Part shown: one piece after another, positions 1 through 3,138 of the stretch
Position numbering within the stretch: position 1 is the stretch's first letter
Layout: every line of letters starts with the position of its first letter
Assembly (NCBI GenBank): GCA_016873095.1
Contig: VGYC01000008.1
Span: forward strand, 1 to 64,000
DNA: 64,000 bases
Direction: 5' to 3'
Source of the DNA: Planctomycetota bacterium
GTDB lineage: Bacteria; Planctomycetota; Planctomycetia; Gemmatales; Gemmataceae
Translations under genes and position numbers: made by a program
Notes under the pieces: generated by a model
What the model was told of the DNA's origin: nothing
Database searches by the model: none
The model's input: the letters and a program-made list of their open reading frames with translations, nothing else

Positions 1-42
1 AATAGAAAAAGGGCAACCCTCCCGGGGGAAGGAGGGTTGCCC
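1..42 (-). terminator. Rho-independent terminator-like hairpin read leftward
   Basis: A perfect 12-bp stem (arms 11-22 and 31-42, GGGCAACCCTCC pairing with GGAGGGTTGCCC) encloses an 8-nt loop. On the minus strand it is followed at once by five T residues and a further T-rich stretch (positions 10 down to 1), the classic layout of an intrinsic terminator for leftward transcription. No minus-strand gene lies nearby on the right, so what it would terminate is unclear. The hairpin also belongs to the constant-loop cluster described separately. Confidence 0.5.
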
Positions 43-205
43 ATCAACGGGGTGCGGCTGGTCAGTCATCGGGGGAAAAGGCGGGCTGGGGGAAAGGAAC
101 TGGGTTCCCTCTGGGGCGCGGCCCGGGGGAAGGCACAACGCCCCGAAACCCGTTTCTGCGACCTGCGACTCATGCCCCTGCGCCTCGGGGGAAAGGCTTG
201 CAGGG
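11..205 (+). repeat. Cluster of hairpins with the invariant loop CGGGGGAA
   Basis: Three hairpins carry the identical 8-nt loop CGGGGGAA on different stems. The first has a 12-bp stem (11-42, loop 23-30). The second has arms 113-123 and 132-144 (loop 124-131) with a small internal bulge. The third has arms 176-185 and 194-205 (loop 186-193) with a 2-nt bulge. The loop motif also occurs at 70-77, and as TGGGGGAA at about 86-93, without a clear stem. Different stems kept paired around one constant loop suggest selection on an RNA or single-stranded DNA shape. The cluster may extend left of the window. The rest of 206-455 shows nothing recognisable. Confidence 0.6.
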
Positions 206-455
206 CCGTCGCTTGTCGATGGATTGATAAAGCAACGTCCGTGCCAATGCGTGCCGGCAATTCTCGCTGCGCTGCAATCTTGTTTGCTAAGTTCTTTGAG
301 AACTCGCTGTTGTGATTTTCCAATGAAATCGCCATTCGAGACGGCCTCGCAAGTCCACGGTCGAACCTTGAATGAAAAGGGTTGGATTTTACAAGTTCCA
401 TTGTAAGAAAGGGAAAGATTGCAACCTTTGGCTCGCCACCCTGGAGAGATGGATC

Positions 456-1736
456 ATGTGGGAAGACCGCCTGGCCCGTGATCTCGAGAGCGAAATCCGC
501 AAGATCCCCCTCATCGATCCACATTCACACATTGATCCGCTCCGGGCGACGGCAAGCAGTTTGGACGACATCCTCGGCTACCACTATTACACCGAGCTGG
601 CGCACTCGGCTGGCATGGAGCAAGGACCGCTGGCCGCCGACTTCGAGCCGCGCGAGCGCGCTCGCGCCATCCTTGGCCATATGGAGCGCATCGATAACAC
701 GGCCCAGTATGGCTGGTTCCTGGACATCGCCCGTTCCTTTCTTGCATTCAAGGGGGACAGGATCACGCAGCGCGACGCGGACCAGCTCTGGGATGCCGCC
801 CAGCGCTGCATGAGCCAGCCGGACTGGGAGGAGCAAGTCTTTCGCCGTTCCAATCTCGAATGCGTGTTCCTCACCAACCAGTTCGACGATCCTCTCGAGG
901 GCTTCGACACATCGCGTTATGTGCCGTGCCTGCGAACCGACGATCTCGTGTTTCATCTCGACACAGGCCAGGTGCGCCAGCGACTGGCGAGCGTTACCGG
1001 GGTGGAGGTCGGCTGCCTGGCCGAGCTGATCGAGGCGTTCGGCAAGCTCTTCGCGCATTTTCAGAACCATGGCGCGCGGGCCTGCGCCATCTCGCTGCCT
1101 CCGGACTTTATCCCCACCCCGGTGGAACAGGGCGACCTGGACCGGTTGCTGGAGCGGTCCCGACTGGACGGTGCGCTGGCCGCGGACGAGCGCGGCGTGT
1201 TGGCGCGCGGCGTCTTCTGGTCGCTGGCAACCTGCTGCCGCGAGTTTCAGTTGCCCTTTGATCTCATGATCGGTGTCAATCGCCGCGTCTACCGCGGCGG
1301 CGTTTACCAGGGGCAGGATCTGTTCGATCAGCGCACTTCGCTGATTCAATACACCGAGCTGTTCAACGCGTTTCCGGACGTGACGTTCCCCGTATCGGTG
1401 CTGTCCAGCGGGCAGAACCAGGAACTGGTCAGCTACAGCTGGATCTTTCCAAACGTCGTGACCAACGGGCACTGGTGGTACTCAAACATCCCGGCATATA
1501 TCGAGGTGGATAGCAGGGCTCGCCTGCAAGCTGTCCCCAAGACGAAGCAGATCGGCTACTACAGCGATGCTTACCGGCTCGAGTTCGTACTGCCGAAATA
1601 CAACATGTACCGCCACGTTCTCGCCAGGGTTCTGGCCGACGATTTCGTCCGCGCCGGCGTCTACAATGAGCACCAGGCTATCGAATTCGCCCGGCTGCTG
1701 CTGCGCGACAATGCGCGGCGAATATTTCAGGTGTGA
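456..1736 (+). CDS. Uronate isomerase-like metal-dependent hydrolase (amidohydrolase superfamily)
   Basis: This 426-residue protein starts at the ATG at 456, 6 nt after a GGAGAGA ribosome-binding site; further upstream in-frame starts have none. Near the N-terminus it has DPHSHIDP, the HxH metal-binding signature of the amidohydrolase TIM barrel. In the C-terminal half NGHWWYSN strongly recalls glucuronate/uronate isomerases (UxaC family). Family members interconvert hexuronates and ketohexonates in the cytoplasm, but at about 470 residues they are usually longer and the overall match is distant. No other hexuronate catabolism gene is adjacent. Read it as a cytoplasmic uronate isomerase-like protein whose substrate is not proven; a hydrolytic role is possible. 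Confidence 0.7.
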   Translation: MWEDRLARDLESEIRKIPLIDPHSHIDPLRATASSLDDILGYHYYTELAHSAGMEQGPLAADFEPRERARAILGHMERIDNTAQYGWFLDIARSFLAFKGDRITQRDADQLWDAAQRCMSQPDWEEQVFRRSNLECVFLTNQFDDPLEGFDTSRYVPCLRTDDLVFHLDTGQVRQRLASVTGVEVGCLAELIEAFGKLFAHFQNHGARACAISLPPDFIPTPVEQGDLDRLLERSRLDGALAADERGVLARGVFWSLATCCREFQLPFDLMIGVNRRVYRGGVYQGQDLFDQRTSLIQYTELFNAFPDVTFPVSVLSSGQNQELVSYSWIFPNVVTNGHWWYSNIPAYIEVDSRARLQAVPKTKQIGYYSDAYRLEFVLPKYNMYRHVLARVLADDFVRAGVYNEHQAIEFARLLLRDNARRIFQV

Positions 1737-1815
1737 TATTCCGGATGTGACCGACGACGATTGCCATCGTCCCAGTGGTCGCTTGTCGGCCAGTCGTTAG
1801 ACCCGAGAGGTTGTC

Positions 1816-3138
1816 ATGTCCCATGCAACGAACCTGTCGCGACGGAAGTTTCTGGCGAGCAGCGGCATCGGCCTGACAGCGGCGCTGCAGGGACAGGCGT
1901 CCCGGCAGCAGCCGCGCGGTCGCGTCAAGGTCGCCGCCATCTACACCGTCTTTCATCATCGCTCGCACGCCCATGTGATCCTCGAGAAGTTCCTGCGGCC
2001 GTATTTCTTCAACGGCAAGCGTATCCAGCCGCCCGTCGAGGTCGTCTCCTTCTACGCCGATCAACGCCTGGCGGAAGGAGACATGACCCAGGACGTGTCG
2101 CGTCAATTCAAGGTGCCCGTGTACAAGACCATCGCCGACGCGCTGACGCTCGGAGGCAAGGAGCTGGCCGTGGATGCGGTCCTGTCCATCGGCGAGCACG
2201 GCAGCTACCGCACAAACAAGCTGGGTCAGGTCGAGTATCCGCGCAAACGCTTCTTTGATGAGATCACGGCCGTGATGCGGCGTTCCAGGCGCTTCGTGCC
2301 GCTGTTCAACGACAAGCACCTGTCGTATCGCTGGGATTGGGCCCGCGAGATGTACGACACGTCGCGCAAGCTCGGCATCCCGCTCATGGCGGGCAGTTCG
2401 GTGCCGCTGGCGCAGCGGCGGCCGGCGCTGGCCTTGCCCGCCGACGCCGCCGTCGAGGAGGCGGTTTCGATTCACGGCGGCGGGCTGGAGAGCTACGACT
2501 TTCATGGCCTGGAAGTGTTGCAATCGATTGTCGAAGCGCGCAAGGGAGGCGAGCAGGGCGTCTCCGGCGTTGAGTTCCTGACGGGGGATGCGCTCTGGCG
2601 AGCGGCTCAGCAAGGCCGCTGGTCGCGGCAGCTGGCCGAGGCCGCCATGGCCGCCGAGTTTGGCGACAGGAAAGTTCCCGACCTGAGCCGGCCCATCCCC
2701 GGCGAGAAGCCCGAGCCGGCCCACGGTCTGTTGCTCACATACCGCGACGGCTTCAAGGCGACGGTGCTGAAGATTGGCCGCAGCGCCGTCCGCTGGAACT
2801 TCGCCTGCAAGCTGGCCGGCGACAAGCGGCTGCACGCCACGAGTTACTATGTCGGCCCGTGGGGAAATCGCTGTCTGTTCATGGCGTTGTCGCACGCGAT
2901 CCAGGATCACTTCGTGCAGCGCCGCTCGCCGTACCCCGTCGAGCGTACGCTGTTGACGACGGGCGTACTGGAAGCCGTCATGCGCTCGCGCCAGGAAGGG
3001 CGCCGCATCGCCACGCCGCATCTCAACTTCGCCTACCAGCCGCGCGACTTCACGGCTTTCCGCGAGATGGGCGCGTCGTGGAAGACGCTCGAAGGCGTCG
3101 CCGAGCCGCGCGGCATCAATCCGATTGGAGACAGGTAG
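1816..3138 (+). CDS. Tat-exported protein of unknown function, planctomycete type
   Basis: The 440-residue product begins with a twin-arginine signal (SRRKFLASSGIGLTAAL), so it should be folded in the cytoplasm and exported. The rest is a soluble alpha/beta protein with conserved-looking stretches such as GEHGSY, FNDKHLSYRWDWA and SYDFHGLE. I recognise it as a family common in planctomycetes that often sits near sugar oxidoreductase or DUF1080 genes and is sometimes annotated as oxidoreductase-like. I cannot assign a reaction. The start at 1816 is preceded by GAGAGG at about 1805. It follows the isomerase-like gene by 79 bp on the same strand and may be cotranscribed with it. Confidence 0.7.
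   Translation: MSHATNLSRRKFLASSGIGLTAALQGQASRQQPRGRVKVAAIYTVFHHRSHAHVILEKFLRPYFFNGKRIQPPVEVVSFYADQRLAEGDMTQDVSRQFKVPVYKTIADALTLGGKELAVDAVLSIGEHGSYRTNKLGQVEYPRKRFFDEITAVMRRSRRFVPLFNDKHLSYRWDWAREMYDTSRKLGIPLMAGSSVPLAQRRPALALPADAAVEEAVSIHGGGLESYDFHGLEVLQSIVEARKGGEQGVSGVEFLTGDALWRAAQQGRWSRQLAEAAMAAEFGDRKVPDLSRPIPGEKPEPAHGLLLTYRDGFKATVLKIGRSAVRWNFACKLAGDKRLHATSYYVGPWGNRCLFMALSHAIQDHFVQRRSPYPVERTLLTTGVLEAVMRSRQEGRRIATPHLNFAYQPRDFTAFREMGASWKTLEGVAEPRGINPIGDR

Follow-up and report, generated by a model that had tools for sequence, protein, structure and literature searches.

A candidate sigma-54-dependent small RNA with redundant C5 sites in Gemmataceae

We analysed 64,000 nt of a Gemmataceae genome, positions 1 to 64,000 of contig VGYC01000008.1; this whole stretch is the window, and its start is the start of the contig. 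The left end of the window holds an array of hairpins that share one loop on differing stems, beside a UxaC-like gene. In our judgement, the array is probably a free-standing gene on the minus strand, for a small RNA that depends on sigma-54, does without Hfq and acts via redundant runs of five cytosines (C5). By the tests used here (Rfam 15 and the literature) it is a new RNA family. The kind is known, namely regulatory RNAs with redundant C-rich loops, in this case with predicted sigma-54 control. Small-RNA regulation is almost unexplored in Planctomycetes, and Hfq went undetected in Gemmataceae. The data suggest a previously undescribed RNA regulator in bacteria lacking Hfq.

The hairpin array, its promoter and its terminator

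The loop word CGGGGGAA occurs at positions 23, 70, 124 and 186 and nowhere else on either strand of the window. With about 2.9 copies expected in the whole window the count is ordinary; the packing within 193 nt is not. A fifth copy of GGGGGAA, read on the plus strand, is at 88. The leftmost inverted repeat forms an uninterrupted stem. The two others also pair, their stems interrupted by an internal loop and by a bulge of 2 nt, and the copies at 70 and about 86–88 fold as single-stranded linkers. This agrees with an earlier note on this DNA, which described three stem-loops and two further loop copies. The note also thought that the array might continue beyond the left edge. Contig C300 overlaps the first 127 nt of the window and has no further loop copy past the overlap. 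Hence, the array does not extend leftwards. Across the genome CGGGGGAA is not enriched (181 copies against 243 for the reversed word), and the other copies examined fell mostly in unrelated coding DNA or in a dispersed repeat at contig starts. Hence, the genome-wide motif search proposed in the note sets apart the local structure, which is distinctive, and not the word itself.

When 95 genomes of the family were searched with window positions 1–371, seven other genomes proved to have the first hairpin, at least six of them upstream of the same UxaC-like gene, which is present in 86 of the 95. We gathered the upstream regions of 79 UxaC-like genes; most have several hairpins with a common loop and differing stems. 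Promoter and terminator statistics were computed for the 76 Gemmataceae regions of sufficient length, of which 55 contain the RNA unit and 21 do not. The RNA is usually 130–480 nt upstream of the gene. The exact word CCTTGGGGGAAGG, sought in all 95 whole genomes, gave many matches at exactly this locus, and the reversed control gave few. A covariance model, another proposal of the note, was built (R1) and matched 40 of 398 genomes of the class, all Gemmataceae; because the model favours the Gemmata-like form and fails to detect the copy in the window itself, absence outside the family is only suggestive. The unit was not found beside the UxaC neighbours of other families. Rfam 15 gave no match up to E 5 in window positions 1–3000 and chance microRNA matches only on five loci holding the RNA, and a plasmid DNA collection gave no match. 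A search of open-access literature turned up no paper on Gemmata small RNAs or on planctomycete RNAs under sigma-54; most subscription journals lie outside that search.

Between the array and the UxaC-like gene, the minus strand carries a near-perfect sigma-54 promoter, TTGGCACGGACGTTGC, the sole site of such a score in the window. Where the array exists, minus-strand scores are mostly 22–26 of 26. Shuffled sequences and the plus strand mostly give 17–22, with shuffle maxima mostly 20–23. In 57 selected genomes the GGCA and GC of the promoter never vary. Of the 55 regions with the array, 54 have a minus-strand promoter, as do 2 of the 21 without it; a plus-strand site was found in 2 of the 55. 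An intrinsic terminator is present on the minus strand in 51 of the 55, with CCCC in its loop in 48, and on the plus strand in none. Fisher's test gave p 1e-14, a descriptive value because relatedness is ignored. The minus-strand fold of the window RNA is unusually stable (z = -3.5, 0/200 shuffles); that of the plus strand is not (z = -0.35). In an alignment of 17 RNAs, G-U cells number 46–62 and A-C cells 16. On the strength of promoter, terminator, G-U bias and fold stability, we place the RNA gene on the minus strand, where its loops would read UUCCCCC. RpoN was found in 87 of the 95 genomes (E 4.4e-60 in G000). By eye, the sigma-54 sites of G001 and L249 that lack C5 appear to precede protein genes.

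Standard pairing accounts for 95.1% of alignment cells. Double (compensatory) changes occur in 27 of 56 pairs; shuffles gave 10.7 and slid controls no more than 7 (0/500). These changes between genomes point to selection for RNA structure, in which the loop stays the same as the stems change, as the earlier note had supposed. The Gemmata-type RNA begins with a 5' hairpin, followed by a long-range stem CGGUGCCGG/CCGGCACCG that encloses a ACCUUCCCCCAAGGU hairpin. Next come a GGCC..GGCC hairpin, the GGGAGAG-AUUUCCCCC-CUCUCCC segment, a linker with further C5 runs and, at the 3' end, the terminator GCCGCCGCCUUCCCCCAAGGCGGCGGC and its U-tract. The window's own clade is too diverse for a global consensus fold from one alignment; there, promoter and terminator alone align.

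Upstream of the promoter, a TTACAA/TTGTAA element accompanies the RNA in 52 of 57 regions and is essentially absent from regions without the RNA. The exceptions are two genomes with a lone TTACAA word each and G090, which has a truncated contig. A stricter version of the pattern matched in 16 genomes, and 15 of these have the match at the RNA. One of these is G016, where the RNA is 23 kb away from uxaC. Relocated or extra RNA copies with their own promoter occur in G006, G008, G017, G018, G026, G028, G045, G046, G047, G048, G064, G089, G090, G093 and G094. Copies away from uxaC (among them those of G016, G006, G045–G048, G064, G093 and G094) often keep their own upstream element as well. Hence, element, promoter and RNA travel as one unit. 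The element is best read as a candidate activator site for the sigma-54 promoter. We also considered a leader of the uxaC-like gene and rejected it: the unit is found in other places too, as well as in genomes that lack a close UxaC. The arrangement argues for a separate, free-standing RNA gene.

Proposed action of the C5 sites

The number of C5 runs per RNA averages 5.6 (range 1–9 sites); shuffled sequence gives 1.5. The probability of being unpaired is 0.91 for C's inside the C5 runs of the RNAs and 0.34 for their other C's. The runs are placed in loops, linkers and terminator loops, and UU is the commonest preceding dinucleotide. Because the stems vary while C5 stays, C5 is presumably the working part of the RNA. 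Hfq was detected in none of the 95 family genomes; control searches were positive.

We propose the following course of events. An activator, itself predicted, would bind the TTACAA/TTGTAA element and switch on RNA polymerase with sigma-54 at 247–232. Transcription would run from about position 220 through two hairpins, the linker and the third hairpin, and would stop at the U-tract at 10–6. The loops, linkers and terminator loop of the RNA would then expose many CCCCC sites, held by stems whose sequence is free to change. These sites may pair redundantly, without Hfq, with G-rich parts of target RNAs, for example their ribosome-binding sites. If the small RNA reading is right, pairing of this kind is the likeliest mode of action and has about an even chance of being correct. 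Titration of a C-rich-binding protein is the next likeliest, as a tentative second choice. There are precedents for pairing. LhrC has redundant UCCC-type sites in its loop, its linker and its terminator loop, through which it pairs with ribosome-binding sites (PMC4132741), and the redundant anti-Shine-Dalgarno loops of NfeR1 pair with the same kind of target (PMC10746234).

Several points weigh against the small RNA and its pairing. Transcription itself is predicted from computed features (structure, strand, promoter, terminator, conservation and C5 exposure), as are the activator and the mode of action. The sequences are related, and the counts therefore do not represent independent events. 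Since the minus strand supplied the consensus fold, the G-U comparison is somewhat biased towards that strand. An RpoN match is missing in 8 of the 95 genomes; most of these are incomplete, yet completeness is 92% or more for G030, G055 and G092. Targets were sought in 800 kb of G012, covering 565 genes with starts called by a simple script. Runs of five guanines (G5) at -24 to -7 numbered 19 against about 7.5 expected, a weak enrichment of about 2.5x local background, and GGGGGA was not enriched at ribosome-binding positions of these genes. G5 was found upstream of 14 of the 565, three of them nuoB, nuoC and nuoK (named by eye). In 20 of 30 genomes (L386–L415, nuoA/nuoB junction) GGGGG stands directly ahead of the start of nuoB. 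It falls inside nuoA codons (AAG GGG GTG), where the NuoA C-terminus reads KKGVFQW or RKGVF. The nuoC G5 is unconserved, being present in 2 of the 30. Hence, the nuo operon was dropped as a target.

The same RNA could instead be a protein sponge, whose C5 sites sequester a C-rich-binding protein, as a decoy like CsrB or CrcZ, and do not pair with mRNA. We consider this possible but rather doubtful. Up to nine sites fit a sponge better than most pairing RNAs, G5 is sparse at ribosome-binding sites, the nuo test was negative, and sigma-54 control is found in CrcZ too (PMC6296734). However, the absence of Hfq removes the partner (Hfq or Hfq/Crc) of a CrcZ-type decoy. We know of no C-rich-binding protein conserved in Gemmataceae, which also counts against a sponge. 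A wider version is more speculative still: a family-wide sigma-54-switched RNA whose C5 loops are the ligand of a C-rich-binding regulator protein, forming a global post-transcriptional decoy system. If true, such a system would stand beside Csr and Crc but use a recognition code of its own, a new one.

Very improbable is a plus-strand RNA, or a leader of the uxaC-like gene, that presents GGA loops to CsrA, a mechanism suggested in the earlier note. The usual distance of the array from the UxaC-like gene would suit it, and the CsrA homologue that the note suggested looking for exists (PF02599 in 95 of 95 genomes, with 7 matches in G000). However, plus-strand terminators and promoters are absent or rare, and their minus-strand counterparts are nearly everywhere; G-U bias and stability favour the minus strand, and the unit exists without uxaC nearby. 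With the minus strand transcribed, the UUCCCCC loops contain no GGA and could not be CsrA sites. What survives of the note's proposal is the multi-site regulatory RNA in spirit, with strand and mechanism changed. Just as improbable is a DNA element, whether a set of binding sites, a G-quadruplex region or the palindromic end of a mobile element. A truncated integrase-like frame next door on C300 (named by eye) and the plus-strand G5 tracts might speak for it. Against it stand the compensatory changes with G-U preference, the fixed places of promoter and terminator, the lack of any array outside the transcribed region and the location of that frame outside the unit in those relatives that were inspected; the DNA-processing sites imagined in the note found no support.

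Comparison with known regulatory RNAs

The C5 RNA resembles alpha-r14/NfeR1 and the cuckoo RNAs of alphaproteobacteria in its several hairpins, identical C-rich unpaired motif, strongly differing stems and redundant sites (PMC10746234). Their motif is CCUCCUCCC (anti-Shine-Dalgarno), on three hairpins under LsrB/NtrC control (PMC10746234). In contrast, the Gemmataceae RNA does not carry CCUCCUCCC as its motif; it has CCCCC in 1–9 sites and a sigma-54 promoter. No homology between the C5 RNA and alpha-r14/NfeR1 was detected, and there was no Rfam 15 match. Another near analogue is Listeria LhrC, taken together with the UCCC RNAs RsaE, SprD and FsrA. LhrC has C-rich sites in loop, linker and terminator loop, and all three placements exist in the window RNA. 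LhrC also acts without needing Hfq (PMC4132741). This group differs in its UCCC in a CU-rich context, shorter RNA, Firmicutes hosts and other promoters, LhrC being under LisRK (PMC4132741). We take the likeness to LhrC as one of working parts and not of homology. The constant-loop, changing-stem design of NfeR1 and LhrC thus appears to have a counterpart in another phylum, probably of independent origin.

CrcZ and CrcY of Pseudomonas present A-rich motifs for Crc, together with Hfq. Like the predicted C5 RNA, they combine sigma-54 dependence, upstream activator subsites and several copies of one motif, which in CrcZ and CrcY binds protein (PMC6296734). Unlike them, the C5 RNA repeats CCCCC and is found in hosts without Hfq; sequence similarity is nil. 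The CsrA-sequestering RNAs CsrB and RsmZ consist of several hairpins whose loops repeat one motif, GGA in the RNA itself. The C5 RNA shares that layout but bears CCCCC.

A conserved RNA with a clear switch and a repeated motif offers a direct handle on RNA regulation, through its inducing signal and the recogniser of C5. Some hosts are named organisms (Zavarzinella formosa DSM 19928, Limnoglobus roseus PX52 and Gemmata sp. IIL30), which makes the predictions testable.

Features of the predicted RNA gene and neighbouring observations

The predicted RNA start in Table 1 is placed about 12 nt past the -12 GC of the promoter.

Table 1. Coordinates of the predicted RNA gene and adjacent features in the window
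Feature	Position	Strand	Basis or remark
Noncoding RNA, ~215 nt (predicted)	5..220	-	start near A220, end near 5-6; leftward transcription predicted
5' hairpin	176..205	-	fold; C5 loop at 191-187
Middle hairpin	113..144	-	fold; C5 loop at 129-125
Linker with two single-stranded C5 sites, 92-88 and 75-71	71..92	-	unpaired probability 0.63-0.99
Terminator hairpin, perfect 12 bp, C5 in loop at 28-24	11..42	-	inverted repeat; terminators in relatives
Terminator U-tract, TTTTT then CTATT	6..10	-	sequence; A-tract at matching place in relatives
Sigma-54 promoter TTGGCACG-GACG-TTGC; -24 at 247-240, -12 at 235-232	232..247	-	score 26/26
Candidate upstream activating sequence TTACAA-N6-TTGTAA for sigma-54 activator	389..406	.	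co-occurrence with RNA
UxaC-like gene (glucuronate isomerase family), divergent neighbour outside RNA unit	456..1736	+	Pfam PF02614, E 7.8e-14

Just left of the window, L006 164–619 (+) on C300 is a short, apparently truncated integrase-like frame, MPRPAKLWRRGQNGFYYTKIDGKQHRLSVDYEESLDLF..., named by eye. It starts about 40 nt past the RNA terminator, and a Pfam scan of it gave no match. A dispersed repeat, ACCGCGGGCTTATTCTTACGAAGTCGAGAGTTCTGCGGGGGAAGAGATT..., starts many G000 contigs (C13, C39, C42, C56, C72, C77–C79, C81, C85, C102, C118 and C127; L037–L050). Hence, it is a multi-copy element at which the assembly broke, and it is unrelated to the C5 RNA. At L108 (G030:C665) a long poly-G/poly-C stretch occupies the expected place of the RNA; this is probably an assembly or sequencing artefact at C5 hairpins.

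A second type of C5 RNA was seen at L368 (G017:C118), L369 (G090:C279), L372 (G026:C583) and L374 (G018:C261). It ends in a hairpin of the GAGCCGCCCGGT-CCCCC-ACCGGGCGGCTC type and is upstream of another gene, whose product, where readable, begins like MSAPIYVMPP. Finally, the 12.4-Mb genome G006 has 15 copies of CCTTGGGGGAAGG, far above its relatives, and no control matches; these are possibly many C5 RNAs or a repeated hairpin.
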